Virus record (IMG/VR): IMGVR_UViG_3300044522_000078 | Location: 1-40,333 of that record | Origin: a virus | Strand: one strand, 5' to 3' | DNA: 40,333 bases | Part shown: positions 1,726 through 29,013 of the stretch, piece after piece | Numbering within the stretch: the stretch's first letter is position 1 | How the letters are laid out: the number at the start of each line of letters is the position of its first letter | Translations under genes and position numbers: made by a program | Notes under the pieces: generated by a model | Told to the model about the DNA's origin: nothing | Database searches by the model: none | Seen by the model: only the letters and a program-made list of their open reading frames with translations

Positions 1726-1755
1726 AAGGATAGGGAACTTCGGTTCCCTATCTTT
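1726..1755 (+). terminator. Intrinsic terminator after capsid gene
   Basis: A perfect 10-bp stem (1729-1738 with 1743-1752) is closed by a TTCG tetraloop, extended by three A/G-T pairs, and runs into a T-rich stretch (TCTTTTCT). It sits 13 bases after the capsid stop. It probably gives partial termination, so the abundant capsid mRNA exceeds that of the connector and tail genes downstream. Confidence 0.8.
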
Positions 1756-1780
1756 TCTAAGGCCTGAGCCTTAGAAAAGA
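1751..1780 (+). other. Second perfect hairpin overlapping the terminator tail
   Basis: A 13-bp perfect inverted repeat (1751-1763 and 1768-1780) with a CTGA loop lies directly downstream. Its left arm is the T-rich tail of the preceding terminator, and bases 1751-1755 belong to both structures, so the two hairpins compete. It ends 14 bases before the next start codon, just ahead of its AAAAGGA ribosome site. It has no T-run of its own. A role in readthrough, mRNA end protection or RNase III processing is inference. Confidence 0.65.
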
Positions 1781-6208: not shown

Positions 6209-6240
6209 AGAAGGTGGCTTGATCACCACCTTCTCTTTTT
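6209..6240 (+). terminator. Intrinsic terminator after tail tube gene
   Basis: A perfect 9-bp stem (6209-6217 with 6226-6234) with an 8-base loop is followed by CTTTTT. It lies 10 bases after the tube stop and 25 bases before the chaperone start. It should lower transcription of the chaperone genes relative to the tube gene. Confidence 0.8.
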
Positions 6241-6721: not shown

Positions 6722-7056
6722 CATATTTTCAAAATAGTTCCGTTAGCATGACTAAGGAACAGTATTTTGAAATGTGTGAAATGCTAGGTACTAATCCTAT
6801 AGATTCCGAGATTCCAATAGAAATAGACGACTTACCTTTAGAAGTACAAGAAGCCATAAATATCTACAGTCATTTAAGAGATGACTGGGATTATACTGGT
6901 GGAAACTATATTGGGAAAAGTCTAATTGGATTTAAAGATATATTAAATATGTATGAAGTAAACAAATCTGACTATAAATATATGTATGAATTAATTATAT
7001 ATATAGATAGAATTAGAGCTAAACAAATACACGATAGTAAACCTAAGACTACTTAA
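6679..7056 (+). CDS. T-domain extension of tail chaperone GT (made by frameshift)
   Basis: This reading frame is entered by -1 slippage at 6673-6679. Base 6679 is read twice, and the full GT product runs 6266-7056, 138 residues from the G frame plus 125 from this one (263 in total). The extension begins L-S-E-I-Q-R-R-E-V-N-Q-Q-L and is rich in Asp, Glu, Tyr and Ile. An ATG at 6748 is in frame but has no recognisable ribosome site, so I do not think it is an independent start. In lambda the T part recruits tube protein to the G-coated tape measure. Termination is immediately followed by a strong terminator. Confidence 0.82.
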   Translation, partial: LSEIQRREVNQQLDSYFQNSSVSMTKEQYFEMCEMLGTNPIDSEIPIEIDDLPLEVQEAINIYSHLRDDWDYTGGNYIGKSLIGFKDILNMYEVNKSDYKYMYELIIYIDRIRAKQIHDSKPKTT

Positions 7057-7083
7057 AAAGCCTCCCTTGTTGGAGGCTTTTTT
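7055..7083 (+). terminator. Intrinsic terminator after chaperone genes
   Basis: An 11-bp stem (7055-7065 with 7072-7082), CTTGTT loop, G+C-rich core GCCTCC/GGAGGC, ending in a T-run. It overlaps the stop codon of the GT frame and separates the chaperone from the tape measure transcription unit. Confidence 0.87.
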
Positions 7084-7106
7084 ACGCCTCGCAGAAAAAT
7101 ACACGC

Positions 7107-7135
7107 TTGACTTATATCATCCTCAATGGTATAAT
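7107..7135 (+). promoter_or_regulatory. Extended -10 sigma-70 promoter for tape measure/tip block
   Basis: TTGACT (7107-7112), 17-base spacer ending in TGG, and perfect TATAAT (7130-7135). The TGN before the -10 makes it an extended -10 promoter. The same layout recurs at 23504 and 28328. It follows a terminator by 23 bases and should drive genes from 7191 onward. Confidence 0.82.
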
Positions 7136-7143
7136 TGTAGCAA

Positions 7144-7157
7144 ATGTGAATACACAT
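7144..7157 (+). other. 5' leader hairpin
   Basis: ATGTG / CACAT with an AATA loop lies within a few bases of the expected transcription start (about 7142) and is followed by a T-run. The stem has only five pairs and is probably too weak to terminate. It may protect the 5' end of the mRNA. Confidence 0.45.
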
Positions 7158-7190
7158 AATTTTTTTATACTGGCGGTACCAGGAGTAAAT

Positions 7191-10100
7191 ATGGCAGAAA
7201 ATACAGTAAATATTGGTATTAACGTATCCGATAATGGTACAACAGCAGGCATCACAAAAAATGTACAGAATTTAAAAGATGTATTAGATCAAGCTGCAGC
7301 ATCGGCTACTAAGATAGGTTCTGGTACTCCTACTGCGGGAAGTGCTACTACTAGTCGTATTACTGCAGCCAGTGCTCCTTCTAGTATGTCTTTTGGAGAA
7401 CGTAGAGAGTATGGTACTTCAAGAGCGGTAGGTGGAGGTACAGGGGCTGAAGCTAGGGATTTTGCTAAGGAATCCGCAGGCTTAGGTGGAGTAGTACGCC
7501 TATACGCAGTATTTGCAGCTAATATTTATGCAGTAAGTACTGCATTCGAAGTTTTAAGTAAAGCTAATGCAGCTGACAGAATGATAAAAGCTTCTGAAAT
7601 GCTTAGTATACAGATGGGGGCTAATCTTAAAAATATTAGTAAAAATTTACAAGAAGCTACAGATTATTCTTTAAGTTTTCAAGAAGCTACCCAATTCACT
7701 AATATGGGTATTGCTGCAGGTATTGCGGGGAAACAAATTGAAAATTTAACTAGAATTGCTAAAGGTGCCGCATCAGCACTTGGCAGAGATACGGGTGAAT
7801 CTATCAGACGTATTATTACAGGTACTGCTAAACAAGAACAAGAAATTTTAGATGAATTAGGTATCTTTGTTAAAGCCAAAGATGCTTACAAAGAATATGC
7901 TGCAAAATTCGATATTAAAGGTGGTGCAGACGCTTTAAGTGCTCAGCAAAAAGTTTCTGCTTATGCAAATGCTGTAGAAAAAGCAGGAGAAAAGTGGAAA
8001 GCATTCGCAGATATTCCTGATCCTTTTAGTAAGTTTAAAGCCAAAGGTTCCGAGGCACTACAAGAATTATTAAGTAATATTAATAAATTAATAACACCTA
8101 TAATATCTTTCTTAGCAGAATCTAGCGATAGAATTAAAGCCATAATGGTATTAATATCTGTCTTGTTAGTTAGAAGAGCGCTACCAGAATTAAAAGGTTT
8201 ATTTACAAATCTATTTACTTTTGACGCAGCTCAAGCTAAAGCAGCAGGTGACGTAGCCAGACTAACGGCGGTAAAACAGTATGCGGATATTACTTCTGCA
8301 TTGGAAGCTAAACAAGCAGAACGTGCAGCTTTAATGAATAGACCTACCAGCAGTACAGTAGCACAAGCAGTGGGAGGTTTAGCTTCTGTTAAAGGAGTAC
8401 CCGGAGGTATTAATGTAGCTTCCCTATCTTCAGCTATTGCTGCTAAAGATTTAGTTACATATACTTCTATACATGGTATACAAACAGAAATAGCTAGAGA
8501 TATAGCCAAACAATTGGCTTTAGAAGCAGATAAAACAGGTTTGATACAAAAACAAATTGATTTAGGTATACTATCTAAAGCTGCAACAGTAGATAATATA
8601 ATCTTAGGTAAAGAATCTATTATAGTTTCCGAAAAGCTTCTGTTAGAAGCTAAGAGTAAGGCAATAGTAGAGGCCGAAACTTTAGCGTTACAAACCAAAC
8701 AATTAACTTTATCTAAAGAATTAACAGCTATGGGCGCTGCGGGAGGGAAAGTACCCTTAGGCCCAACTGGAGGAGCTCCTACAACTGCAGGAACTCCTGT
8801 GACTCCTATTGCTAGCGCAGCTGGAGCCATAGCAGCAACTAAGGCTGAAGATGATCTAGCAGCAGCCCGTCTTAGATCCGGAGCAGCTGCAGGAGTATCC
8901 GGAGCAGCTGCTACAGGATTAGTAGTAGCTACTACAAGGGTAACAGTAGCTACTGTAGAAGCAGTAACTATGACTCAAGCATTTAATATGGCTTTAGCAA
9001 AAAGTGCTGCAGCTCATGAGAGATTAGCTACAACTATGGGGTTGGGTACTATAGCAAGCCTAAGAATAATGGGGAGTGTACTAGCTCAATCCTTTATGAG
9101 TATACTCAAATGGGAAGCAGGTATAGGAGCAGCAGCTGTAACAGCTACAGTATTTGGAAATGCCGTAGTATTTGCGGGAGTAGCTGTAGGTACATTAGCT
9201 AAAGCATTTATGCAATTTTTAGGCCCTATAATGTTAGTATGGGCTGCCTGGGATATATTCGGCGATAAAATCAAAGAACTATTAGGTATTAGTACTGACC
9301 TTACAAAAAAGCAAGAAGAATTAGACAAACAAAACAAAACTAGTAATGAAACTATAGGATTAATGGGGGCCTCACTTGACTTATTAAATACCAAACGTAA
9401 AGACCAGATTCAAACTTATGAAGATTTAGCAGCCGCTCATAGAATAGAAGCATCAGCTATGCAAGAAGCAAGAGCTGCTTTTGATGCTGCATCCAAAGCT
9501 GAATCAGACGTAACTAAACAATCTTTATTAGATGCTGCTAAAGCTGCTGCTGCCAAAAGAAACGATGTATTTAGTGAACGTGCTTATTTCTTTGAGCAAT
9601 TGGCTAATAATACTGAACTAACAGAAAGTCAGAGAAAAGAATACAAGGAGCAAGCAGTTTTATTCCAGAATTTTGCAAATGGTAGAATAGCAATGTTGGA
9701 TAAAATAAAGACTGCCGAAGATGCTGCAGGGGGTGCTAGGGCTAATAGAGATTATCTTAGAAGCCAGAACTCACCTGTAGCTTCCGAACAAGCAAATACT
9801 AAAGTAGTAGCTGCAGATAAGGAAGCTGCAGAAGCGAGAAATAGATTAACTGATTCTACTAAAGAGCTAGATGCCGCTGGTGTAAAACTTTTAGATAATA
9901 ATAAAGCGCGATTAGAACAATCTCAATCTTTAGACGCTGCTACTTTAAAAAGCTCTGCCGTAATTACAAAAGGTTGGGAAGATGTAGAAAAACGTAGAAA
10001 AGAAATAGCAGATCCAACATCTAAAATAAAAGATGTTAAAGTTGAAGAAATGAGAACTAACTTAGTAAAGTTGTTCGATATGACTGGTAGTGTAATGCAG

Positions 10101-12188
10101 CAAGAAGGTCGTCGTAAGATAATATTAGACTCTCTAACTGATGCTCAGAAAAATACTGTAGAGGGTACTAAATCACATGCTAAAGCAGTTTTACTATTAA
10201 ATATATATACTGCCTCGTTAGAAAAAAATGATAAAGATTTAATTAAAACATTAGCAGATGTAAAAGATGCTATGGACGAGCTATTCGGAGCTGTTGAAAA
10301 ATCACTAAAACAAGCCCCTTTCAGAGCCTATACGGATGCTGCTGAAGCTGGTTTTATTAAGTTAAAGGCTGAAATTAATAAAACTGGTCTAGACATAAAA
10401 CGTACAGATATGGAAATAGCAAATATTTCAGCAATAGATGCTAGAATTAAATCAATTCAAGGTTACTCAAATGCATTACAAATTGCAGCCTTGAATAAAG
10501 CAAGAAATGATAAAGCAGACCTAGAATTTACTAATGCAAATAAAACCGCTCAGTTAGAGTATGATAGAATAATAAGTAAAAAAGATCAAGAAGGCGATCC
10601 TAAAGCAAGAAAGCTTGCTAACGACGCAGCTTTAGTTGCACTTAATCTAGCAAAAGAAACTGCAGACTTAAATAAAAAAGCAGCACTTGCTGGCAATGTA
10701 AGTGTAAATATTAATGATAAAATAGCTGTATCCTTAGCAGTAATTGGAAAAAGATATGAAGAAATTGACCGCACAATATCTGTAATTATTGCAAAAAATA
10801 ATGCTACCCTAACTTTAGACAAAGCTAGGGTAGATGCACTATCTCAACTCAATGCTTACTCCGAAACAGGGCTAGCACTTAGAACCCGTTCATTAGAGGC
10901 TGCTAAAATAGAATCAGATTATCTACAAGCCACATCCCAAGCGCAGAAAGATAAAGATAAAGCTCAAACAGAGTTAAATGCTAAAATACAAGACAGTACT
11001 AAATTAACAGAAGAAGAAAAAATAGCGCAGGATGAGATAAAAAGTATATACGATACAAAAATAGCTTTAGCTATTATATCAAATAAACTAGCGCAGGAAA
11101 CTTTAAAAATATCTACAGAAACTAAATTGAATCTAGCTGCCCAAAATGAACTCGTAGAAAAACAGAACTTTGCACTTAGCCAATTAGAAACATTAAAAGC
11201 AAGAGAACTAATAACTAATGACGAGTACTTAGCCAAGAAGAAATTATTATCACTAGCTAGTTTAGAACAAGCCGCAGATAGGGAAAAGGGGCTAGCTATT
11301 AAAGCTCTTACGGCAGATTTAGTACCATTAGGCGAAAAATTAACAGCATTAAGCATAGTAGGTGCTGATACTACAGCACTAGATAACGAAGTTAAAGCAA
11401 CAAGAGCTGCAACAACTGCCAAGTTAGAAGGTATAGATAGAGTAAAAGCGGCTAAAGTAGATCAAGCTAAATGGGATGCTAATCAAAATGAACGTCAAAT
11501 AGGATACACTGAAACTTTTAAAACCGCTTTTAGTTCTATGAGCGATGCAGTTGCAGAATTTGCTAAAACTGGTAAACTAAACTTTAAGAGCCTAATTGAC
11601 GATATGCTAGCCAATTTGATAAAGCTTGAAATGAATATGGCGATGAAGAAGATGGTAGGAGAAGGAGGGTTCGGAGGATTAGCTACTAAAGCTATTGGCT
11701 ATTTATTTGGAGCACCTGCAGTACCTAGCGGTAGTTTCGATACTATGCCGGGCTCGGGTGCTGGTAGCGATCCTCGTATGAACAATGCAAAAGGTGGTGC
11801 TTTCGACGGCGGAATCAAAGCTTTCGCAATGGGCGGAGCATTTGCCAATTCCATCGTAAGTTCGCCAACTATATTCAAGTTCGCCAGCGGAACTGGCCTC
11901 ATGGGAGAAGCAGGCCCTGAAGCGATCATGCCTCTAAAACGCGACTCTAATGGCAATTTAGGTGTACGCGCAGGTAGTAATAACAGTGGTGGAAATGTAG
12001 AAATAGTAGTTAATAACTATGGTAATCAACAAGCAACTACTAAGGAATCTACCGATAGTAGGGGTAATAGAAAAGTAGAAGTCATGGTTGGTGATATGAC
12101 TGCGGGAGAAATTAACCGCAGTGGAAGTAGTTCACAAAAATCAATTCAAAGTACTTATGGATTACAACCAGCACTAATTAGGAGATAA
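7191..12188 (+). CDS. Tape measure protein (1665 aa)
   Basis: The protein sets tail length and is ejected with the DNA. I place the start at ATG 7191, which follows AGGAG; the frame stays open upstream to 7107, but that stretch holds the promoter. The protein is very long and mostly helical, with Ala/Lys/Glu-rich coiled-coil stretches. It has two hydrophobic segments (about residues 317-332 and a long one at 643-690) that may help cross the inner membrane. The C-terminus has a Gly-rich segment and then the hallmark G-E-A-G-P-E-A-I-M-P-L near residue 1575, common at tape measure ends. At about 1.5 angstrom per residue the tail would be near 250 nm; this is a rule-of-thumb estimate. No peptidase or lysozyme motif was noticed. 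Confidence 0.92.
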   Translation: MAENTVNIGINVSDNGTTAGITKNVQNLKDVLDQAAASATKIGSGTPTAGSATTSRITAASAPSSMSFGERREYGTSRAVGGGTGAEARDFAKESAGLGGVVRLYAVFAANIYAVSTAFEVLSKANAADRMIKASEMLSIQMGANLKNISKNLQEATDYSLSFQEATQFTNMGIAAGIAGKQIENLTRIAKGAASALGRDTGESIRRIITGTAKQEQEILDELGIFVKAKDAYKEYAAKFDIKGGADALSAQQKVSAYANAVEKAGEKWKAFADIPDPFSKFKAKGSEALQELLSNINKLITPIISFLAESSDRIKAIMVLISVLLVRRALPELKGLFTNLFTFDAAQAKAAGDVARLTAVKQYADITSALEAKQAERAALMNRPTSSTVAQAVGGLASVKGVPGGINVASLSSAIAAKDLVTYTSIHGIQTEIARDIAKQLALEADKTGLIQKQIDLGILSKAATVDNIILGKESIIVSEKLLLEAKSKAIVEAETLALQTKQLTLSKELTAMGAAGGKVPLGPTGGAPTTAGTPVTPIASAAGAIAATKAEDDLAAARLRSGAAAGVSGAAATGLVVATTRVTVATVEAVTMTQAFNMALAKSAAAHERLATTMGLGTIASLRIMGSVLAQSFMSILKWEAGIGAAAVTATVFGNAVVFAGVAVGTLAKAFMQFLGPIMLVWAAWDIFGDKIKELLGISTDLTKKQEELDKQNKTSNETIGLMGASLDLLNTKRKDQIQTYEDLAAAHRIEASAMQEARAAFDAASKAESDVTKQSLLDAAKAAAAKRNDVFSERAYFFEQLANNTELTESQRKEYKEQAVLFQNFANGRIAMLDKIKTAEDAAGGARANRDYLRSQNSPVASEQANTKVVAADKEAAEARNRLTDSTKELDAAGVKLLDNNKARLEQSQSLDAATLKSSAVITKGWEDVEKRRKEIADPTSKIKDVKVEEMRTNLVKLFDMTGSVMQQEGRRKIILDSLTDAQKNTVEGTKSHAKAVLLLNIYTASLEKNDKDLIKTLADVKDAMDELFGAVEKSLKQAPFRAYTDAAEAGFIKLKAEINKTGLDIKRTDMEIANISAIDARIKSIQGYSNALQIAALNKARNDKADLEFTNANKTAQLEYDRIISKKDQEGDPKARKLANDAALVALNLAKETADLNKKAALAGNVSVNINDKIAVSLAVIGKRYEEIDRTISVIIAKNNATLTLDKARVDALSQLNAYSETGLALRTRSLEAAKIESDYLQATSQAQKDKDKAQTELNAKIQDSTKLTEEEKIAQDEIKSIYDTKIALAIISNKLAQETLKISTETKLNLAAQNELVEKQNFALSQLETLKARELITNDEYLAKKKLLSLASLEQAADREKGLAIKALTADLVPLGEKLTALSIVGADTTALDNEVKATRAATTAKLEGIDRVKAAKVDQAKWDANQNERQIGYTETFKTAFSSMSDAVAEFAKTGKLNFKSLIDDMLANLIKLEMNMAMKKMVGEGGFGGLATKAIGYLFGAPAVPSGSFDTMPGSGAGSDPRMNNAKGGAFDGGIKAFAMGGAFANSIVSSPTIFKFASGTGLMGEAGPEAIMPLKRDSNGNLGVRAGSNNSGGNVEIVVNNYGNQQATTKESTDSRGNRKVEVMVGDMTAGEINRSGSSSQKSIQSTYGLQPALIRR

Positions 12189-12189
12189 T

Positions 12190-12576
12190 ATGGCGTATTC
12201 GTACTCATGGGCAGGAACTGGATTACCGCAAAACCCTCAGAAGGGGTTTTCGGAAACAGGAGGAGTTTTAGTAATTAGGACTCCTACTGACCAGGGCCCT
12301 GCAAAAATGCGATATAGAGGTGCTAAACCTCAAGTATTAAGTATAAGTTTTTTAATGACTAGCGCCCAAGTAGTTCTCCTAGAAGCTTTTGTAAAAGATA
12401 CTATTAAGGGTACGGCACGTTTTGGATTTCCGCACCCTAGACTAATTACTGCACTAGGAGCACCTCTTATGGTAGAAGTAAGAATGGTTCCACAAGGTAG
12501 CGGAGATTACTATAATTTAACATATACAGCTCCAGGTTATTGGAATGTAGCATTACAATTGGAAGTACTACCATGA
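12190..12576 (+). CDS. Minor tail / tip protein, lambda gpM-like position
   Basis: This 128-residue beta-rich protein starts one base after the tape measure stop (TAATATG) and follows GGAG. It lies where lambda gpM (or a distal tail protein) is encoded. It contains a G-A-K-P-Q-V-L-S-I-S-F strand, a helix, the segment G-T-A-R-F-G-F-P-H-P-R, and an aromatic end (Y-W-N-V-A-L-Q-L-E-V). Proteins of this size and position form the ring linking the tube to the tip. Its stop overlaps the next start (ATGA), so the two are probably made in equal amounts. The role is inferred from order. Confidence 0.6.
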   Translation: MAYSYSWAGTGLPQNPQKGFSETGGVLVIRTPTDQGPAKMRYRGAKPQVLSISFLMTSAQVVLLEAFVKDTIKGTARFGFPHPRLITALGAPLMVEVRMVPQGSGDYYNLTYTAPGYWNVALQLEVLP

Positions 12577-13258
12577 GTCGCTTGACCTCACTGTCCCCAG
12601 AAGCTATCCTTGCTATATTTTCTCCGGATGCAGATAGTGACCTATTCATGCTAGTTACTATCTATGATCCTAATCCTGTTACGGTGTCCGCAGGAAGTTT
12701 TATAGTAGGTAAAACCTATAGTATTCTTAGTGTAGGTACTACTGATTTCACAAATACCAGCATAGGTGCTATCAGTAATGCCGTAGGAACTATATTTAGA
12801 GCTACTGGAGTAGGTACTGGTACTGGTACAGCATCAGATATTGTAGCTATGCGTTTGTGCGATGGATATACTAAACGTATATCTGAAACTGCTGATGAAG
12901 TTATTTATGGAGTAACCAGTAGGGGTAATGATTTTACATTTTTACCGATACAAATTACTTTGCCTCAGGAAGACGAAGCTCAAGCTCCTAAATGTACTAT
13001 AACTTTAAACGATGTTACAAGGCACGTTACACCTTTAATTAGAAGTCTTACAGCATCTCCTAAAGTATTGTTAGAACTAGTTTTATCTAAAAACCCTACA
13101 ACCCTAAATAGGGTTGAAGTATCTTTTTCGGGATTATATATAACTAACTTTACGTATAATGCAGATTCAGTTGTAGCTACTCTAGCAATGACTGATTATG
13201 AACGGGAACCCTTTCCAATGCATACATTTTCTCCTAAATACTTTCCAGGATTATTCTA

Positions 13259-13259
<1 letters not shown>
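12573..13259 (+). CDS. Tail-tip protein, lambda gpL-like slot (DUF1833-type) with inserted domain
   Basis: I chose ATG 12573, overlapping the upstream stop, giving 228 residues; the frame remains open upstream to a TTG at 12540 with no ribosome site. Residues ~1-33 and ~92-228 resemble DUF1833 tail proteins (I-Y-D-P, then L-C-D-G-Y, F-x-F-L-P-I-Q-I-T-L-P, ITLNDV, and V-L-L-E-L-V-L-S). That group lies at the tail tip next to the K/I/J proteins. Residues ~36-91 are an extra Gly/Thr-rich module: G-K-T-Y-S-I, then G-T-T-D-F, I-G-A, F-x-A-T-G and G-T-G-T-A. I have seen that short motif scattered through phage structural proteins, so this is probably a domain insertion. The stop overlaps the next start by one base (TAATG). 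Confidence 0.7.
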
Positions 13260-21660
<8,401 letters not shown>

Positions 21661-21664
<4 letters not shown>

Positions 21665-21999
21665 CATACGGACTACAGATATTCGATTCTGTAGGTACTA
21701 AAACTTTCGATTCCACAACCGCCGCTGGCGGTTGTGTAGTTGATATGGTACCTCTTATCATTAATAGTGGTACAGGAAGCGTATATAATACAGGTACTCA
21801 GACAGGTATGCAATATAAAACATACCCCGATTTCGCAGGAAGAACTGCGTATGTTATATTAATATCCGGATACGCAAATAATACATCTCCTGTAGTAGAC
21901 TATGATCTAGGATATCCTAGAGTAACTTTTTATCCTTTTAGTACGGCTGGTTATAGTACCGCGTATCCTCCTGAAGTTTATATGGTATTTGTACTATGA
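21661..21999 (+). CDS. Small tail-tip-associated protein, M-T-Y-G-L family, copy 1
   Basis: This 112-residue protein starts inside the stop of the giant tip gene (ATGA) and begins M-T-Y-G-L-Q-I-F-D. The next gene starts in the same way (M-T-Y-G-L-K-I-D-N), so the two are probably distant paralogues sharing an N-terminal strand. The body is beta-rich with many Tyr, Pro and Thr residues and no membrane segment. I recall small phage proteins with this start (DUF6453-like) encoded beside J-type proteins; the exact function is unknown. Position suggests a tip accessory or cap protein. Translation is coupled on both sides by ATGA overlaps. Confidence 0.6.
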
Positions 22000-23066
22000 C
22001 ATACGGTCTTAAAATAGATAACTCTTTAGGAAAATTAGTTCTTTCTTCAGATGCATTAGGTTATAGATATGTAGGTACTGCCAGTTTAGTATCTTCAGCA
22101 AGTAAATCTGGTACATTTGGTACACTTACGCCTTATGTATATAGCATAACATTACCTGCAGGCGCAGTGTATCCTATAGTAGGTATAAAATTAACTCCGA
22201 ATTCTCTTGTTAATGTATATTCTGTATCTAATGTTCAGCAAGCTACATCCCTAACATATATTTATGGATATGCAGGAGCCAAAAGAGCGGTAGATACTAG
22301 TACAGGTAATATATATTTTAATTCTGATAGCCTTTCAGGTGGTTTAGTATACGGTCAAAACTATGGTATATTAACAGTTAGAAATAACTGTATCTACGAA
22401 GGAGAAAAGATTGTATATGGATTAGAGTATCAGGCTTCCCCCCCAGGATATAGAGCAGTTTATCCACCTACTAATGGCAGTAAACCCGCATCATATATTC
22501 CCACTACTTCAAAATTAGTTATAACAGTTGATTCTATTAGTACGGCTACTAACTATAGAAATTACTCTGCTTTAACCTTCTCTGTGCCTACAGTATACGC
22601 CTTTTGCCCCTATGTTAATTCTGATGGTAATTCAGGGTATGGTTTAAATTTATATGATTCCTCAGGTACTAATCTAACTTTTAGTTCTAATAAACTACCT
22701 ATGTCTATCAATCAAACTAGAGATTTTGCATATGCTACTACGTTTAAAAGTGACGGTTATGGATCTTTTAATAATGGTTCAGACCTTTATACGACGGGAC
22801 AATCTATGTCTTGGAATAATATAACTAATCCTGTAATGCTAGTAGGGCAAGGATTAGGCAGTGTAATATGCGAAAGACAGTCTATAAACCCAGGAGAAAT
22901 TATATTTGAAGAGAATTTTGGATGGATGTATATAGGCAGTACCTTAATGAGAATGCCCTATAGAGTAAATCAATCATCTTTTACTTATGATACCTCCTTG
23001 GATAGTGTAGATGTTAATGTATCCCCGGTAAGAACAATAATAGTTGATGGTACTAATTTTACATAA
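21996..23066 (+). CDS. Tail-tip-associated protein, M-T-Y-G-L family, copy 2
   Basis: This 356-residue protein begins in the stop codon of copy 1 (ATGA). After the shared M-T-Y-G-L start it is a long beta-rich protein with many Tyr, Ser and Gly residues, including L-V-Y-G-Q-N-Y-G-I-L and G-W-M-Y-I-G-S-T near the end. No catalytic motif or coiled coil is visible. It is probably an elongated structural or adhesin protein at the tail tip. It is three times longer than copy 1, so any homology would be confined to the N-terminal part and fold. Function beyond virion association is a guess. Confidence 0.55.
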   Translation: MTYGLKIDNSLGKLVLSSDALGYRYVGTASLVSSASKSGTFGTLTPYVYSITLPAGAVYPIVGIKLTPNSLVNVYSVSNVQQATSLTYIYGYAGAKRAVDTSTGNIYFNSDSLSGGLVYGQNYGILTVRNNCIYEGEKIVYGLEYQASPPGYRAVYPPTNGSKPASYIPTTSKLVITVDSISTATNYRNYSALTFSVPTVYAFCPYVNSDGNSGYGLNLYDSSGTNLTFSSNKLPMSINQTRDFAYATTFKSDGYGSFNNGSDLYTTGQSMSWNNITNPVMLVGQGLGSVICERQSINPGEIIFEENFGWMYIGSTLMRMPYRVNQSSFTYDTSLDSVDVNVSPVRTIIVDGTNFT

Positions 23067-23075
23067 AGGAACAAA

Positions 23076-23459
23076 ATGGCTTTAATTAAAGATTATCCTA
23101 CACAATTCGGGGTAACTGCAAATTATCATAAAATAACTAAAATTGAGTTCTTAGTTAATAATTTAACAGTTAGTATCATAGTTGCAGTATACGCTACGCA
23201 AGCTGCATATGATACTGGTAGTAGTCCTATATGGAATGAATATGTTGCTATACCTTTTTCACAATTCAAAAGTGATCCTAGACAAGCATTCTATCCATTA
23301 TTAGAAACTTATGTAAATTCTTATCTCACAGGTGCACAGTCATCTTTTACTGGAGACTTAGATATTGCTAATGCTTTAGTACTAAAGCCGTACGAACCTC
23401 CACCCCCCATGCCTGTAATACCTGCACCAGAACCAGCACCACCTGCACCACAGTTTTAA
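23076..23459 (+). CDS. Small structural-region protein with proline-rich tail
   Basis: This 127-residue protein follows AAAGGA at good spacing. It starts M-A-L-I-K-D-Y-P-T-Q-F-G-V-T-A-N-Y-H-K-I, a beginning I associate with small phage proteins in tail-fibre regions. The last ~20 residues are almost all Pro, Ala and Glu, a flexible tail. No enzyme motif is seen. It is the last gene of the tip transcription unit, directly before a strong terminator. Its function is unknown; I infer a tail or fibre accessory role from context. Confidence 0.6.
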   Translation: MALIKDYPTQFGVTANYHKITKIEFLVNNLTVSIIVAVYATQAAYDTGSSPIWNEYVAIPFSQFKSDPRQAFYPLLETYVNSYLTGAQSSFTGDLDIANALVLKPYEPPPPMPVIPAPEPAPPAPQF

Positions 23460-23469
23460 AATTAAAATT

Positions 23470-23500
23470 AAAATTCCAACTCTCGGGTTGGAATTTTTTT
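23470..23500 (+). terminator. Intrinsic terminator ending the tail-tip unit
   Basis: An A/T-flanked stem with CCAAC/GTTGG core (23470-23480 with 23487-23497), TCTCGG loop and a 7-T run. The next promoter starts three bases after the T-run. The core and T-run match the terminator at 28295. Confidence 0.88.
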
Positions 23501-23503
23501 GGT

Positions 23504-23532
23504 TTGACTGTAGAATGCCTGCATGGTATAAT
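23504..23532 (+). promoter_or_regulatory. Extended -10 promoter for fibre cassette 1
   Basis: TTGACT (23504-23509), 17-base spacer ending in TGG, perfect TATAAT (23527-23532). The spacer shares ATGCCT-N-CATG with the promoter at 28328. Expected start of transcription is about 23539, giving a leader of some 57 bases. Confidence 0.85.
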
Positions 23533-23547
23533 AAGGTCAATTAAATT

Positions 23548-23569
23548 AATATTGCCAATATTTTTTGGC
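23548..23569 (+). other. Leader inverted repeats (possible operator or 5' hairpin)
   Basis: A 15-base perfect inverted repeat (AATATTG-C-CAATATT, 23548-23562) overlaps a second hairpin (GCCAA/TTGGC, 23554-23558 with 23565-23569). Both lie about 10-30 bases after the predicted transcription start, where a repressor site or an mRNA-stabilising hairpin could act. Confidence 0.45.
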
Positions 23570-23595
23570 TACTTATATAGCAAAAGGAATATAAT

Positions 23596-23985
23596 ATGGC
23601 TATTAGATTTGTTCACGGAGACACAGCTCCGCAATTGAAATTAACTATTAGTGATAGTGTTGCTGGTTCCGAGCTATCTCTTACTAATTATAATATTAAT
23701 ATGTATGTACGAGTTGCGGGTACTACGCCTGCTACTCCTATTTTAATTAAAACTACTGCTGGTGGGGGTATTGTTAAATCTAATCAAACTACTTTTCCTG
23801 GTGAGTGTGTTGTTAGTTGGGTTGCTGGAGACTTAAACCTAACAGCAGGTAGCTATGAGGCTGAAATTGAATTAATAGGTATGACTGGTACTGTTGCAGC
23901 AGGTATTGTAGAAACAATATACGATTTAGTAAGTTTTTCCGTACGTGCTGAGATGGGACCTAGTGCTGCAGGTGCACTAGGTTAA
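23596..23985 (+). CDS. BppU N-terminal-like fibre/baseplate anchor protein (cassette 1)
   Basis: This 129-residue protein begins A-I-R-F-V-H-G-D-T-A-P-Q-L-K-L-T-I-S-D, the pattern of the BppU N-terminal domain (PF10651-like), in which a G-D-T segment leads into a beta sandwich. Later strands include I-N-M-Y-V-R-V and Y-E-A-E-I-E-L. In lactococcal phages BppU attaches receptor-binding proteins to the baseplate. Here it is the first gene after a promoter and is followed by fibre genes, the same arrangement as the gene at 28426. The start has AAAAGGA upstream. It probably links the adhesins of this cassette to the tail tip. Confidence 0.65.
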   Translation: MAIRFVHGDTAPQLKLTISDSVAGSELSLTNYNINMYVRVAGTTPATPILIKTTAGGGIVKSNQTTFPGECVVSWVAGDLNLTAGSYEAEIELIGMTGTVAAGIVETIYDLVSFSVRAEMGPSAAGALG

Positions 23986-23990
23986 ATAAT

Positions 23991-25013
23991 ATGTTAGGAG
24001 TTATAGCTAGTATAGGATCTGGTCTTATAGCACTTATAGCTAAACAAAGTGAAAAAATAGCAGGTGTCCTAGCTGCTAGTGATAAAACTACATCCGTAGA
24101 TGTAACTAGTAATCTATCCGCTAGTGTAGAAACACGCAGTGGAATATTAGTAAATATTATTGCTATAAGTAATAAACTTGCAAGTGCAGAAAATTCTCGT
24201 AACTTAGTACTTTCAGTAGTACAAGGTATATTTATACTTATTCTACAATTCTTTGATACTGTAGCTATTAAAGATAGTACGCTTATTGGTATTAATAAAA
24301 GTATTACGGATGATCTCACTACAGTAGATATTACTATAGTTGAAACTACAAATTTAGGTACTATCAAGAATGCTGTAGAACCTATAACTTTAGTAGATGT
24401 TCCTAGTACAGTTACTAGCTTTAATCGCACAGTTACAGAACCTATAACTTTAGTAGATGCTCCTAGTACAGTTACTAGCTTTAATCGCACAGTTACAGAA
24501 CCTATAACTTTAGTAGATGCTCCTAGTACAGCTACTAGCTTTAATCGCACAGTTACAGAACCTATAACTATAGTTGAAACTACAAATTTAGGTACTATCA
24601 AGAATGCTGTAGAACCTATAACTTTAGTAGATGTTCCTAGTACAGTTACTAGCTTTAATCGTACAGTTACAGAACCCATAGCTTTAGCAGATACTCTCAG
24701 TACAGTTACTAGCTTTAATCGTACAACTACAGAACCCATAGCTTTAGTAGATACTTTCAGTATAGCGGCCAATTTTAACTCTACTATTTCGGATCCTATA
24801 ACTTTAGTAGATGTTCCTAGTACAGTTACTAGCTTTAATCCTGCTATTTCGGAACCTATAGCTCTAGTAGATGTTCCTAGTACAATTACTAGTTTTAATC
24901 GCAGAGCTACAGAACCTATAGCTCTAGCAGATATTGGTAGAATTACTATTTTTAGTTATTCAAATCCTGATTATTTTAGTGAAGACTACGTTGGTACTTT
25001 TACTACATTTTAA
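23991..25013 (+). CDS. Fibre-like protein with eight 20-residue repeats
   Basis: This 340-residue protein starts five bases after the BppU-like gene. Residues 1-25 and about 78-90 are hydrophobic (G-I-F-I-L-I-L-Q-F-F) and might anchor or trimerise it. From residue 130 it is built of 20-residue units of the type E-P-I-T-L-V-D-x-P-S-T-V-T-S-F-N-R-T-V-T: three, then an 18-residue spacer, then five more that diverge toward the end. The C-terminus is aromatic (Y-S-N-P-D-Y-F). Regular short beta repeats of this kind form fibre shafts. The DNA repeats are nearly identical, so copy number could change by recombination. The fibre role is inferred from repeats and context; I do not recognise a named family. 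Confidence 0.6.
   Translation: MLGVIASIGSGLIALIAKQSEKIAGVLAASDKTTSVDVTSNLSASVETRSGILVNIIAISNKLASAENSRNLVLSVVQGIFILILQFFDTVAIKDSTLIGINKSITDDLTTVDITIVETTNLGTIKNAVEPITLVDVPSTVTSFNRTVTEPITLVDAPSTVTSFNRTVTEPITLVDAPSTATSFNRTVTEPITIVETTNLGTIKNAVEPITLVDVPSTVTSFNRTVTEPIALADTLSTVTSFNRTTTEPIALVDTFSIAANFNSTISDPITLVDVPSTVTSFNPAISEPIALVDVPSTITSFNRRATEPIALADIGRITIFSYSNPDYFSEDYVGTFTTF
24333..24911 (+). repeat. 60-bp tandem repeats with a 95-nt exact repeat
   Basis: Full 60-bp units start at 24378, 24438, 24498, 24612, 24672, 24732, 24792 and 24852; a 54-bp variant occupies 24558-24611. Bases 24333-24427 and 24567-24661 are identical (95 nt, 234 bases apart), showing a recent duplication of a block of units. 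Confidence 0.9.
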
Positions 25014-25031
25014 AATTTAAGAAAGAATTAT

Positions 25032-25502
25032 ATGAATTCCAATAAGGAAACACTAAGTATTAAAGGCAATTTAAATATTGTTCTTACAGATGCACAAGGT
25101 AATATTAAAGATACTAGACAAGTAACTAATTTAGTAGTCTCTTCGGGAGTTGCATTTATACTAAATAGATTAAAAGATAATGTGACATATGCTACTGGTA
25201 TGTCACATATGGAAGTAGGTACTAGTGCTACAGTTACTGCATCAACTCAAGCTGCTTTAGCAGGTGCTACAGGTACACGGGTAGTAACTTCTAGCTCAAT
25301 AACTGCTACTACAGCAAGCGGAACAATTTCGTATTCCGCTACTTTTGGAACCGGAGTATCGAGCGGACCTCTTACAGAAGCAGGTATTTTTAATGCTTCA
25401 ACTGGAGGCATTATGCTATGTAGAACAGTCTTCCCTGTAATTAATAAAGGTACAAATGATACCATGACTATTACGTGGGCAATTACAATAACTCCAGGAT
25501 AA
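25032..25502 (+). CDS. Phage structural-region protein, 156 aa
   Basis: The protein begins with a polar strand (L-S-I-K-G-N-L-N-I-V-L-T-D), as in small tail proteins. It ends with a pattern I recognise from phage fibre regions: L-T-E-A-G-I-F-N, then G-I-M-L-C-R-T-V-F, and T-M-T-I-T-W-A-I-T-I. The middle is Thr/Ala/Ser-rich. The start has an AAGAAAG ribosome site. It has no membrane segment or enzyme motif. It lies between repeat fibre and adhesin genes in one transcription unit, so a virion accessory role (for example a cap or collar of the fibre) is likely but not shown. Confidence 0.6.
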   Translation: MNSNKETLSIKGNLNIVLTDAQGNIKDTRQVTNLVVSSGVAFILNRLKDNVTYATGMSHMEVGTSATVTASTQAALAGATGTRVVTSSSITATTASGTISYSATFGTGVSSGPLTEAGIFNASTGGIMLCRTVFPVINKGTNDTMTITWAITITPG

Positions 25503-25514
25503 AGAGATCCCTAA

Positions 25515-25967
25515 ATGACTATTTATACTAGACAGACAACATCTACTACTAGTATTGGGGTAGTGAATTTGGGAAATCCCCTAAATAATACACAACTTGA
25601 CCAGAATTTTATATTTCTGAACGATAGTAAACGTCCTATCCTTACACGTATTGGAACAGTAGTATCTACTGCTACTGTAACACCAAGTACAGCGTCTGAT
25701 CAGTATAATATTACAGCTTTAGCTACAATAACAAACATAGCAATCCCTACAGGTAGTACTGCTTTTGATGGACAAAAATTAACTATACGTATAAAAGATA
25801 ATGGTACTGCATACGCATTGTCCTGGGTAACTACTACAGGAGGATATAGAGTAATAGGTACTATACTACCCCTTACTACTATAGCTACTAAAATTACGTA
25901 TATTGGATGTATATATAATGAGGCAGATTCTTTTTGGGACGTAGTTTCTGTAGCACAACAGGTCTAA
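25515..25967 (+). CDS. Phage fibre-region protein, 150 aa
   Basis: The N-terminus (T-S-I-G-V-V-N-L-G-N-P-L-N-N-T-Q-L-D-Q-N-F) resembles the 'L-N-x-x-Q-x-D-x-N-F' start of many phage fibre proteins, which defines an attachment segment. The rest is a beta-rich module with D-G-Q-K-L-T-I-R-I-K-D-N-G-T, A-L-S-W and a final Y-x-x-A-D-S-F-W-D-V-V-S-V. Such a domain is common as the C-terminal part of fibres, here as a separate small protein. The ribosome site is weak (AGAG). I infer a short fibre or fibre-tip protein; no enzyme function is visible. Confidence 0.6.
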   Translation: MTIYTRQTTSTTSIGVVNLGNPLNNTQLDQNFIFLNDSKRPILTRIGTVVSTATVTPSTASDQYNITALATITNIAIPTGSTAFDGQKLTIRIKDNGTAYALSWVTTTGGYRVIGTILPLTTIATKITYIGCIYNEADSFWDVVSVAQQV

Positions 25968-25976
25968 AGGTTAAAT

Positions 25977-26147
25977 ATGCTAAAAATTGATTTTCAAAAA
26001 ACCCAAGATCTAACTACATTTTCTGACGCTATATACTTACCTGAGGATCATACATTTACTGAAGCAGACATTGAAGCAATGAAACAAGAACGTTTCGATA
26101 CTTGGTTAACTATTATTAATCCTCCTATCTTACCTGTAGAGGAATAA
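25977..26147 (+). CDS. Small 56-aa protein before the beta-repeat adhesin
   Basis: ATG 25977 follows AAGG at a usable distance and the frame ends with TAA at 26145-26147, one base before the next start. The product begins M-L-K-I-D-F-Q-K and is acidic, helical in the middle (T-E-A-D-I-E-A-M-K-Q-E-R-F-D-T-W) and Pro-rich at the end (N-P-P-I-L-P-V-E-E). Its stop region carries the GAGG ribosome site of the next gene, so the two are coupled. I do not recognise it. Similar small helical proteins occur between fibre genes in environmental phages. It may be a fibre chaperone or assembly helper; this is speculation. Confidence 0.65.
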   Translation: MLKIDFQKTQDLTTFSDAIYLPEDHTFTEADIEAMKQERFDTWLTIINPPILPVEE

Positions 26148-26148
26148 A

Positions 26149-28293
26149 ATGGCTACAAAATATTGGGTAGGGGGTTCGGGTACTTGGAACTTAAGTTCTA
26201 CTGTAAATTGGTCATATACATCCGGAGGTACAGGAGGTGCTCCTGTACCTAACTCCTCAGATGATGTAATTTTTGACCAGGCGGGTACTTACGGCATTAC
26301 AATGACAGGAACAGCAACTATTGCTACTTTAGTAGTTAGTGCAGCAAGTTCTTACACTTTTAGAAACGGAATTTCCCCCGCTCTTATAAGTACTGCAGGT
26401 ACTTTAAATTTAGCAACCGGCACTACTTGGAACTGTACAGGAGCACTTACATTAGGAGGTTCTGGTACTGTAACTACTAATGCCGTATTAATACGTAGCG
26501 GTACTATAACAATTAATACTGCTGGTACAATTACTCTTGGTAGTGCCTTAACTACGCTTTCTACAAGTTACTTTTACCATACACTGGGTACTCTTGCACT
26601 TGCCGGTTATACGTTAACAGCAGGATACTATAGTTCAACTAATGCTAATACTAGATCTATTGATTTTGGAACTAATGGTAAAATATATTTAATTTGGAAT
26701 GTCCTTAATTCTATAGTACTTTCCATGGGTACTATTACCAACTTTACCTGGGCAGGTACTGGAGGATTTTATCTAAATGCAAATATAGCTAAGAGTATTG
26801 TCATTGGGCAAAGCGGAGGAGGTAATGCATACAATGCTCCTAATTTATACGTATATGCAGGAAGTGGTACATTATCAACATCTTCCAGTTGGTTCAACAT
26901 ATTAGATTTTACAGGATTTACTGGAAGTGTTGCCTCCGGCTCGGTAAACTTTAATACTTTAATATTACCTACTACAGGCTCTTTCCCTTTAACAGTTAAT
27001 TTTATAGGTACAGGTGGTACTTATACATCAAACAGTAGAATTATAACTGCATTAAATATTAATTCTGCACCGAACGGAACTCTTAGCATAGGCAGTCCCC
27101 TATCAACTAATGCTGATATTCCAAGTGTTACTCTTACCCAAGGTACTTTAGATCTTAATGGACATGATTTATCTACAAATACATTTATATCCTCCAATAC
27201 CAATATTAGAAGCATTAATTTCGGTGCAAATAAAATAACGTTAGGTGTAGGTGTAGGCGGTAATGTACTTTCTATGGGCACGGCTACTAACTTTACTTGC
27301 TCAGGTACAGGTGGTTTTACGACGTTATCGGCCACAGGAAGTAAAACTCATACATTTGGAAATACAGCAGGCGGTAGTAGCAGTAATGCTCCTAATTTAA
27401 ATATACTTGGCGGAACTGTTCCTCATACTTTATCTACTGGAAGTTACTTTGGGATATTAGATTTTACAGGCCCTACTAGTTATAATTCTGTCAATACTAC
27501 TGCAATAAATGTAAACTCGCTAATACTATCTGCCCATCCTTCTGCAACTACTGCATATCGTAGCATGTCTATAACTGCTGTAGGTACTGGTACTATTAAT
27601 ACTAATAATAGAGCTATACCTGCATTTACAGTTAATGCCCCTAATGGGGTAGTAACATTAGTAAATGATCTTACTATTCTAAACTCCACTAATACAGCTG
27701 GTCCTGTAATATTAACTGCCGGAACACTGGATATAAATAACTATACACTTAATGCAGCAACATTCGATTCTACCGGAGGTACCTCTCGTGCTTTAGTATT
27801 AGGAACAGGTATACTAAATATATCGGGGTCTTCTTTTTTTGCTCCTGCTTCCCCCGAATTAACTACACCGACTTCAGGAACAATTAATTTAACAAGTGCA
27901 AATATTAAAATCTTTACAGGTGGTAGCGCATCATGGCCTACTTTAAATCAAGGTGGAATAGGTACTCTAGTTATAGCAGGTTCTAATACTTTCGCAAATA
28001 TAACTAACACTGTACAACCTACGAGTATTTTATTTACAGCCGGTACTACTAGTACTTTTACTAACTTTTCACTAGCGGGTACTCAAGGTAACCTAGTAAC
28101 AATTAGTTCTTCTACTACTATACCACATACTCTGACAATGGCAATGGGTAGAGCTAATAGCTCCTATTTAAATATTAGTTACTCTAATGCTACAGGTGGG
28201 GCTATATGGAATGCGCGGTCTAGTTCAACTGATTCAGGCAATAATTCAGGATGGATATTTTCAGACCCAAGTACTTTCTTTTTAGTATTTTAA
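26149..28293 (+). CDS. Beta-repeat adhesin / fibre protein, 714 aa
   Basis: The protein starts Y-W-V-G-G-S-G-T-W-N, then V-N-W-S and D-D-V-I-F-D, a beginning I have seen in many aquatic-phage fibre proteins. It is rich in Thr, Ser, Asn and Gly and almost purely beta. Three internal repeats of about 185-190 residues are marked by 'G-T-L-x-(L/I)-x-x-x-x-L' followed by S-T/N...R at DNA positions near 26590, 27145 and 27724. Two copies of a T-G-G-F ... N-A-P-N-L ... I-L-D-F-T-G block also recur (near 26760 and 27310). This suggests a beta-solenoid shaft. The C-terminus ends W-N-A-R-S-S-S-T-D-S-G-N-N-S-G-W-I-F. It is probably a receptor-binding or surface-glycan-binding protein. A terminator follows directly. 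Confidence 0.65.
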   Translation: MATKYWVGGSGTWNLSSTVNWSYTSGGTGGAPVPNSSDDVIFDQAGTYGITMTGTATIATLVVSAASSYTFRNGISPALISTAGTLNLATGTTWNCTGALTLGGSGTVTTNAVLIRSGTITINTAGTITLGSALTTLSTSYFYHTLGTLALAGYTLTAGYYSSTNANTRSIDFGTNGKIYLIWNVLNSIVLSMGTITNFTWAGTGGFYLNANIAKSIVIGQSGGGNAYNAPNLYVYAGSGTLSTSSSWFNILDFTGFTGSVASGSVNFNTLILPTTGSFPLTVNFIGTGGTYTSNSRIITALNINSAPNGTLSIGSPLSTNADIPSVTLTQGTLDLNGHDLSTNTFISSNTNIRSINFGANKITLGVGVGGNVLSMGTATNFTCSGTGGFTTLSATGSKTHTFGNTAGGSSSNAPNLNILGGTVPHTLSTGSYFGILDFTGPTSYNSVNTTAINVNSLILSAHPSATTAYRSMSITAVGTGTINTNNRAIPAFTVNAPNGVVTLVNDLTILNSTNTAGPVILTAGTLDINNYTLNAATFDSTGGTSRALVLGTGILNISGSSFFAPASPELTTPTSGTINLTSANIKIFTGGSASWPTLNQGGIGTLVIAGSNTFANITNTVQPTSILFTAGTTSTFTNFSLAGTQGNLVTISSSTTIPHTLTMAMGRANSSYLNISYSNATGGAIWNARSSSTDSGNNSGWIFSDPSTFFLVF

Positions 28294-28294
28294 T

Positions 28295-28324
28295 AAAAAA
28301 TCCAACTTAGGTTGGATTTTTTTT
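28295..28324 (+). terminator. Intrinsic terminator ending fibre cassette 1
   Basis: Six A's plus TCCAAC (28295-28306), TTAG loop, GTTGGA and an 8-T run. It begins two bases after the stop. The CCAAC/GTTGG core and the GGTTTGACT immediately after the T-run match the unit at 23470-23509. Confidence 0.9.
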
Positions 28325-28327
28325 GGT

Positions 28328-28356
28328 TTGACTATACTATGCCTACATGATATAAT
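28328..28356 (+). promoter_or_regulatory. Extended -10 promoter for fibre cassette 2
   Basis: TTGACT (28328-28333), 17-base spacer ending in TGA, perfect TATAAT (28351-28356). The spacer shares ATGCCT-N-CATG with the promoter at 23504. It should drive the collagen-like, LamG and downstream genes. Confidence 0.85.
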
Positions 28357-28371
28357 AGCTTAAAATATACC

Positions 28372-28390
28372 AGCACACTATATTTGTGCT
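28372..28390 (+). other. 5' leader hairpin
   Basis: AGCACA (28372-28377) pairs with TGTGCT (28385-28390) around a 7-base loop, about 10 bases after the predicted transcription start. It takes the same place as the leader hairpins at 7144 and 23548. Confidence 0.5.
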
Positions 28391-28425
28391 AAATAGACGT
28401 TGTCTGACGCCAACAAGGAGAATGT

Positions 28426-29013
28426 ATGGCAGCACCTACTAAATTGAATTTCAAGATCTACCAAGGCAGTACTTTTACTGAAACTCTACGTTGGGAAAGT
28501 GACTTAAAAGTATATGTTCCTATTACGAACATAACAAAAACTGCCCCTATGGTAGTTACTGCAACAAATCATGGAATTCCTATTAATTGGCGAACGAATA
28601 TATCTAATGTAGTAGGTATGAAAGAAGCTAATACTACAGATTACATTAATGCTACTGCAGTAACTAGTAATACTGTTACTTTTAACTCTATCAATGCTGT
28701 AAACTATAGTACTTATACCGCAGGAAGTGGTATACTATCGTATAACCAACCAGTATCTTTATCTGGATACTCTGCACGTATGCAAATACGTGAAAAAATT
28801 ACTAGCGATACTTTCATCTTAGAACTAACCACTGATAATGAATTTATAGTACTAGATGATATTAATAAAATAATTACTATAAATATTCCTGCAATATATA
28901 CTGCTTTATTTGATTTCAAAACTGCTATATATTCCTTAGAGCTAACTACAGGAACCGTAGTAGAACCTTTTATCTATGGTAGTATTAGTCTAGAACCCGA
29001 TATTACGAGATAA
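28426..29013 (+). CDS. BppU-like anchor protein with inserted domain (cassette 2)
   Basis: This 195-residue protein begins [18 protein letters not shown], resembling the start of BppU-type N-terminal domains, which resumes near residue 110 ([11 protein letters not shown]) through to the end. Between them (residues ~33-107) lies an extra module with [18 protein letters not shown] and [10 protein letters not shown]. That module looks like the FCCH-type insert found in phage tail proteins. It is the first gene after its promoter, with an AAGGAG ribosome site, and precedes fibre genes, as does the gene at 23596. It probably anchors the fibres of this cassette to the tail. Confidence 0.6.

Follow-up and report, generated by a model that had tools for sequence, protein, structure and literature searches.

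The locus analyzed here raises the question of why the late genes of a phage should be interrupted at three points by long gaps that each harbor, in the same order, an intrinsic terminator, a promoter, a leader hairpin, and a ribosome site (hereafter units 1, 2, and 3). The window, i.e., the whole stretch of DNA analyzed, is one IMG/VR record (IMGVR_UViG_3300044522_000078) of 40,333 bases with 39.7% G+C, and it derives from a freshwater phage distantly related to T5. It comprises a late cluster encoding a capsid-protease fusion, a connector, a tail terminator, a tail tube, two chaperones, a tape measure, tail-tip proteins, and fibres. The capsid and tail tube proteins match 905 and 900 phage records, respectively, mostly T5-like phages at ∼30–37% identity, and the gene order of the cluster is the same as in T5, which together identify the phage as a T5 relative by its structural genes. 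In direct comparison with T5, the capsid, tail tube, tape measure, and chaperones are 28–40% identical. No DNA-level similarity of the window to phage records was found, and an Rfam search of the whole window returned no family.

The gaps at 7057–7190 (134 nt), 23460–23595 (136 nt), and 28294–28425 (132 nt) are the three longest in the window. We interpret the units that they contain as boundaries between transcription blocks in the late cluster of a T5-like phage, each combining an intrinsic terminator with a strong host sigma70-type promoter, and assign this reading a probability of roughly 0.85. The block structure is strongly supported by conservation and precedent, and we further suggest that the blocks may be insulated from one another, that polymerase may be recycled between them, and that the leaders may be functional. 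The genes opening the blocks behind units 1 and 3 are the following:

7191..12188, plus strand: gene for the tail tape measure protein, with which the block behind unit 1 opens (matches to PHROG tape measure families, E down to 7e-41)
28426..29013, plus strand: gene for a 195 aa protein (phrog_1084), first in the block behind unit 3 and followed by collagen-like fibre genes

Terminators and promoters of the three units

The initial annotation had placed a terminator ending in a T-run in each of the three gaps, and these were located as follows:

7056..7083, plus strand: unit 1 intrinsic terminator, AAAAGCCTCC-CTTGTT-GGAGGCTTTT, T-run at 7078–7083, placed right where the second tail chaperone gene reaches its stop codon
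23470..23500, plus strand: unit 2 intrinsic terminator, 12-bp stem AAAATTCCAACT/..GTTGGAATTTT, T-run at 23494–23500
28295..28324, plus strand: unit 3 intrinsic terminator, AAAAAATCCAACTTAGGTTGGATTTTTTTT, T-run at 28317–28324

Their predicted folds reach −14.3 kcal/mol (z −4.6), −12.3 kcal/mol (z −4.7), and −13.0 kcal/mol (z −4.9) in units 1, 2, and 3, respectively; none of 200 shuffles was as stable in any of the three cases, and each hairpin runs into 6–8 T, so that this part of the annotation holds. Two further terminators were observed in the window with no consensus promoter behind them:

1726..1757, plus strand: terminator-like hairpin with a UUCG loop, after the major capsid gene, without a promoter behind it, −18.0 kcal/mol
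6209..6240, plus strand: terminator after the major tail protein gene, without a consensus promoter behind it, −14.0 kcal/mol

These promoterless terminators may lower transcription after genes whose products are needed in abundance, and T5 likewise has a terminator behind its capsid gene. As a separate observation, in the region 1714–1794 the UUCG-loop terminator is followed by another strong palindrome, TTTTCTAAGG-CCTGAG-CCTTAGAAAAG, immediately upstream of the next ribosome site; this palindrome may be an mRNA end or a processing signal.

The promoters and the stretch preceding that of unit 1 were placed as follows:

7107..7135, plus strand: unit 1 promoter, TTGACT-N17-TATAAT, exact consensus, TGn at 7127–7129, predicted start ∼7142
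23504..23532, plus strand: unit 2 promoter, TTGACT-N17-TATAAT with TGn, spacer ATGCCT-N-CATG, predicted start ∼23539
28328..28356, plus strand: unit 3 promoter, TTGACT-N17-TATAAT with TGn, spacer ATGCCT-N-CATG, predicted start ∼28363
7084..7106, plus strand: A-rich, UP-element-like stretch ACGCCTCGCAGAAAAATACACGC between the unit 1 T-run and the −35, with its A-tract kept in relatives

The sequences and coordinates that had been given for these promoter elements proved correct, and the A-rich stretch of unit 1 may act as an UP element. The fit of these promoters to the sigma factor of this phage's host is an assumption. TTGACT-N17-TATAAT occurs exactly three times in the 40,333 bases, always in one of the three gaps and always with TGn. 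Strong-looking promoters and hairpins could in principle arise by chance in AT-rich spacer DNA, and loose promoter-like sites are indeed no commoner in the window than in shuffles; the promoter signal therefore lies in the perfect consensus and its position. At that level, a first-order Markov model expects 0.03 matches to TTGAC[A/T]-N17-TATAAT per window over both strands (0.0025 with TGn), against three observed, all within 1% of the window. Together with the conservation in dozens of loci described below, which refutes it, this leaves a chance origin a negligible probability.

Under the block-boundary reading, the terminator of each unit would close the preceding block and the near-perfect sigma70-type extended −10 promoter would open the next one. 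Transcription would rely on the host RNA polymerase carrying the housekeeping sigma factor, possibly altered by a phage protein so as to act late. The polymerase would stop at the terminator and restart 30–60 bp downstream. In vitro, polymerase let go by an intrinsic terminator was reported to slide along the DNA and initiate again at a promoter close by (PMC6978380). After intrinsic termination the enzyme in most cases remains bound and is able to start again in the vicinity (PMC6978380, PMC6978322), so that a hand-over at 30–60 bp would be physically reasonable. In this way, the tail, fibre, and collagen-like fibre genes would each obtain a transcript supply of their own in a cluster of >40 kb, and the hairpin near the 5′ end would shield the mRNA and keep the ribosome site open.

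Two types of unit

The three units had initially been presented as matched, in gaps of nearly equal length, a description of which our comparison bears out the lengths but not the match. The T-run and the −35 are separated by 23 nt in unit 1 but by 3 nt in the other two units, and the leaders measure 55, 63, and 69 nt in units 1, 2, and 3, ranging from 33 to ∼70 nt at the same places in relatives. Equal gap length was thus rejected as a meaningful feature and is regarded as a coincidence, because these inner distances vary between the units and between relatives. Moreover, units 2 and 3 belong to one cassette type and unit 1 to another, which has only the general plan in common with them. The likeness noted between units 2 and 3, in turn, is exact: both carry the CCAAC/GTTGG core, GGTTTGACT after the T-run, and ATGCCT-N-CATG in the spacer.

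Conservation of the units in related phages

A search of related phages for the combined pattern had been proposed as a check, and for unit 1 it was based on 44 IMG/VR loci whose chaperone shares at least 68% identity, 5 of which end before the gap is complete (in one of these, L057, the terminator and −35 are still visible). In all 39 loci covering the region, the complete unit (terminator, A-rich stretch, promoter, leader, and ribosome site) stands ahead of the tape-measure gene, and the terminator hairpin occupies the same place in 39 relatives with a changed stem sequence. Neither gap nor promoter was found at this place in the 15 more distant loci tested (45–54% identity). Among 31 distinct unit 1 promoters, TTGAC and the TG at −15/−14 are invariant, TATAAT is present in 30, and C occupies −21 in 26; the best-scoring promoter was taken per stretch with TG counted in the score, which slightly favors the TG figure, and hexamers alone select the identical sites. 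The distance from the T-run to the −35 at this place ranges from 19 to 29 nt (median 23). Unit 3 immediately precedes its gene in 12 of 16 related loci; in three others a unit lies farther upstream by a small gene, and one locus has no unit. Relatives also contain further units, consisting of a terminator or gap and a strong promoter, before an HNH gene neighboring the portal gene, before a tail-tip gene, and before a holin-like gene, so that the late cluster of these phages is cut at several points. An additional late unit was observed in L171, L180, and L183, where a terminator and TTGACT-N17-TATAAT without TGn are located ahead of a gene encoding ...TQAWLEDPTSIR..., a place at which the window has no unit.

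Leader hairpins

A short hairpin just after the predicted start had been described for each unit, and the following structures were found:

7144..7157, plus strand: unit 1 leader hairpin A, AUGUG-AAUA-CACAU, from folding, paired in 8/9 close relatives
7170..7185, plus strand: hairpin B of the unit 1 leader, CUGG-N5-CCAG, adjacent to the AGGAG ribosome site at 7181–7185
23554..23569, plus strand: unit 2 leader hairpin, GCCAA-N6-UUGGC, with ribosome site AAGGA at 23584–23588
28372..28390, plus strand: unit 3 leader hairpin, AGCACA-N7-UGUGCU, from folding, with ribosome site AAGGAG at 28415–28420

Hairpins are hence present in all three units, but each alone is only modestly stable (z −2.1, −1.0, and −1.5 in units 1, 2, and 3), and the case rests on relatives. 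The hairpin of unit 2 is kept in G002 with a G-U closing pair. Within the nine closest relatives of unit 1, hairpin A shows one double change (G-C to A-U, in L054) and hairpin B has an invariant stem with a variable loop; since a single double change is matched by 64/500 shuffles, covariation at this range is weak, and the argument for leader structure therefore relies on comparison between lineages. Folded from predicted start to start codon, 29 distinct leaders gave a mean z of −1.57, a moderate value drawn from related rather than independent sequences, for which reason the accompanying Wilcoxon probability is too favorable. Separate lineages carry different stems at the same place, namely AUGUG/CACAU, AGGU/ACCU, AGUGU/ACACU, AAUGCG/UGCGUAUU, UUAUCAAAA/UUUUGAUAA, and GUAGG../..CCUAC. 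In L076, L078, and L082, the stems GUGGUUA/UAACCGC, GCAACCA/UGGUUGC, and GCAGCUA/UAGUUGC differ in five of seven pairs and all remain paired (these were paired by hand, as the MAFFT alignment misplaced the loops). The stems before the unit 3 gene likewise read AGCACA/UGUGCU, AAGAC/GUCUU, GAAGAC/GUCUUC, AGAGC/GCUCU, and AGAGCU/AGCUCU. No convincing leader hairpin was found in L089, L090, L133, L134, G001, and G004, and the element is consequently usual rather than obligatory.

Regarding function, the leader hairpins might attenuate or autoregulate the block behind them by binding a structural protein or a ligand, instead of aiding stability or translation. Unit 1 lends itself to such an interpretation: a U-run comes after hairpin A, hairpin B adjoins the ribosome site, and nine close relatives retain both. 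Nevertheless, hairpin sequence and loop change freely between lineages, the U-run is not general, a 5-bp A/U-rich stem is weak as a terminator, and no Rfam family matches, which makes this alternative quite improbable. Because other lineages do not retain hairpin A with its U-run, attenuation by this pair was dismissed as a general feature. The simplest reading, and most likely the role of these hairpins, is that they shield the 5′ end and the mRNA and leave the ribosome site open.

The tail-fibre-like module between units 2 and 3

The genes enclosed by units 2 and 3 form a distinct block:

23596..28293, plus strand: exchangeable six-gene block, tail-fibre-like module, between two units in the window, G002, and L143, missing in G001

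In G001, the six genes are missing, and only one unit separates the homolog of gene 23076, 91% identical, from the homolog of gene 28426 behind it. In G002 and L143, two units flank homologs of genes 23596, 23991, and 25032 together with other fibre genes. A promoter homologous to that of unit 2 precedes the homologous gene in G002/L131, L143, and L169 (in L169, a gene like 23596); a direct scan confirmed no relatives of the first gene behind unit 2, and these were found later via neighboring genes. The proteins of the block weakly match fibre families, and one fibre gene of L143 has an S74 chaperone domain. At the DNA level, the 40 nt of unit 2 through TTGACT are identical in G001 and G004. 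A 63-nt comparison of unit 2 of the window with the one unit of G004 shows 92% identity, beginning with these 40 identical nucleotides, even though the flanking genes differ; the orthologous unit 1 of these two phages reaches only 76%. These comparisons suggest that the cassette may have been swapped together with the fibre module, or as its joint, a suggestion kept at moderate strength because few genomes carry the cassette.

The likeness of units 2 and 3 could accordingly reflect nothing but a recombination joint or mobile piece spreading between phages, with insulation as a by-product, and both the 92% identity despite different flanks and the joined "empty" order of G001 fit this idea. The promoter elements are perfectly kept in the cassette, however, unit 1 follows the same plan in an unrelated sequence, and the cassette occurs in only a handful of genomes; taken as the sole explanation, we hold it to be unlikely, and a recombination joint and a block boundary can both be true at once. 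Combined with the block-boundary reading, units 2 and 3 would constitute the common borders of an exchangeable tail-fibre module, which would bring in a promoter of its own and end at the following terminator. The units thereby show how a fibre module swap can spare the transcription of the genes behind it.

The block 23596–28293 resembles the morons of lambdoid and P22-like phages (definition in PMC2629481) in being inserted between neighbors that a relative joins, here by one unit between the homologs of 23076 and 28426 in G001, and in having its own promoter and closing terminator as predicted from sequence. Unlike morons, it is long, apparently encodes fibre components of the virion and not functions outside assembly, runs in the same direction, and adjoins a block restarted by a unit of the same type. 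The fibre-family matches and the S74 fibre of L143 would thus speak against a classical moron. As for the host, a search of 84,980 genomes with the unit 2/3 promoter pattern gave four scattered, uninformative matches. The same pattern was observed in three Oscillospiraceae genomes (L147, L148, and L150).

Relationship to T5 and other known systems

T5 uses host polymerase with sigma70 for all its transcription classes, and its promoters PG25, identified by experiment as a sigma70 promoter of the late class, and PJ5 start late (PMC7472727). In the T5 record (AY543070), a putative terminator and PG25 lie together at 92013–92113 behind the tape-measure gene, and more terminator–promoter pairs are found elsewhere. 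As in the units, this pair places a sigma70-type promoter and ribosome site right behind an intrinsic terminator, between two late tail genes. The pair is located behind the tape-measure gene in T5, whereas unit 1 lies ahead of it, where T5 has a terminator and no promoter. PG25 also has TTGATA, no TGn, and a short leader without a clear hairpin, compared with TTGACT, TGn, and a leader hairpin in the units. The units thus share with T5 the intrinsic terminator within the late structural cluster and the sigma70-type promoter directly behind it, and they occupy other gene junctions than PG25; because the unit 1 junction differs and T5 has only a terminator there, the units are of the same kind as the PG25 pair but are not orthologous to it.

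The Demerecviridae VCPH and PG07 (Vibrio phages) and Stubb (Proteus phage) carry terminator–promoter pairs at the PG25 place. There, the terminator, promoter, and ribosome site are contained in a gap of 110–140 nt behind the tape-measure gene, similarly to the units, and the VCPH leader starts with a GGUUUC/GAAACC hairpin resembling the unit leaders; these pairs differ in lying one gene later and in promoters further from the consensus, as read by eye. For the T5-like phage AKFV33, 32 sigma70 promoters and 19 terminators were reported (PMC3326045). As judged by these sequence comparisons, the arrangement is of a known kind, since T5 has an annotated terminator with the late promoter PG25, and is seen here in a more elaborate form conserved over dozens of related phages. 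It departs from the known cases in its position before the tape-measure gene, its extended −10, the leader hairpin that it usually has, and the use of units in pairs around the fibre module. The T5 pair with PG25, along with the presence of unit 1 in 39/39 covered loci and in 0/15 distant ones, strongly supports the initial proposal that terminator–promoter pairs split the late genes into blocks.

Discriminator composition and possible late timing

The chief rival to the block-boundary reading assumes that the units carry host promoters of the early type, active ahead of the late phase, and that late transcription starts from upstream promoters and reads through by means of a modified or antiterminating polymerase. 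Consensus sigma70 promoters by themselves cannot separate late from early use, and a precedent exists in Kayvirus 515A1, an unrelated phage in which, similarly to the units, a sigma70-type promoter (p98) lies immediately behind a terminator (t97) before a structural gene; there, this promoter is used early, and late polymerase from separate phage-type late promoters reads through, hardly stopping at t97 (PMC7698491). On the other side, T5, the nearest studied relative, makes late RNA from sigma70 promoters including PG25 (PMC7472727), and the discriminators differ between promoter groups of the same phages. Among 55 distinct late-unit promoters, 53 have a G in the four bases behind the −10 (−6 to −3), versus 5 of 21 other strong promoters, which makes the late-unit promoters look like a separate class. 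Conversely, discriminators starting with ATA or ATT were found in 1/55 late-unit promoters and 9/21 others. In both comparisons, "other" refers to promoters not next to a recognized structural gene, which may include those of late genes, and the sequences are related, which makes the nominal probability of the contrast unreliable. No motif of another late promoter type was noticed. We therefore consider early use with late read-through improbable.

The T5 late promoters PG25 (ATTG) and PJ5 (GTTA) also have discriminators with G, and ATATT was reported in the discriminator of T5 early promoters (PMC7472727), which the late-unit discriminators do not resemble. The contrast observed here may echo this reported early/late difference. 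How T5-like phages distinguish late from early sigma70 promoters is called unknown in the same study (PMC7472727), and the units supply >50 distinct late-type promoters, whose common discriminator trait is mostly lacking in other strong promoters of these phages, which opens this question to testing with reporters and modified polymerase. No homolog of gpT5.026, proposed to act on the discriminator, was found in ten partial or long records, which are incomplete and very distant and were searched with no positive control. A clade-wide model can be envisaged in which G-discriminator and extended −10 would define a late sigma70 class always accompanied by an upstream terminator, a phage-modified host polymerase would read timing from the discriminator, released polymerase would pass to the next promoter, and the cassette would double as a fibre-swap joint; this full combination is speculative and, in our estimation, holds with low probability.

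Strong promoters of other kinds were also observed. In L154, L160, and L185, a TGn promoter with an A/T-rich discriminator is conserved before the gene for a protein starting MAKTF...DSLNLAFRWKHSG, probably an early gene of flap-endonuclease type. Additionally, a strong, partly divergent promoter family is present at the gene-poor genome end in L043 (G003, ∼32–37 kb of IMGVR_UViG_3300045972_000034) and at L035:600–700, in which each promoter is followed by (T)TTGGCGCA and a long hairpin; this family looks like early-region promoters or a set of short RNAs.
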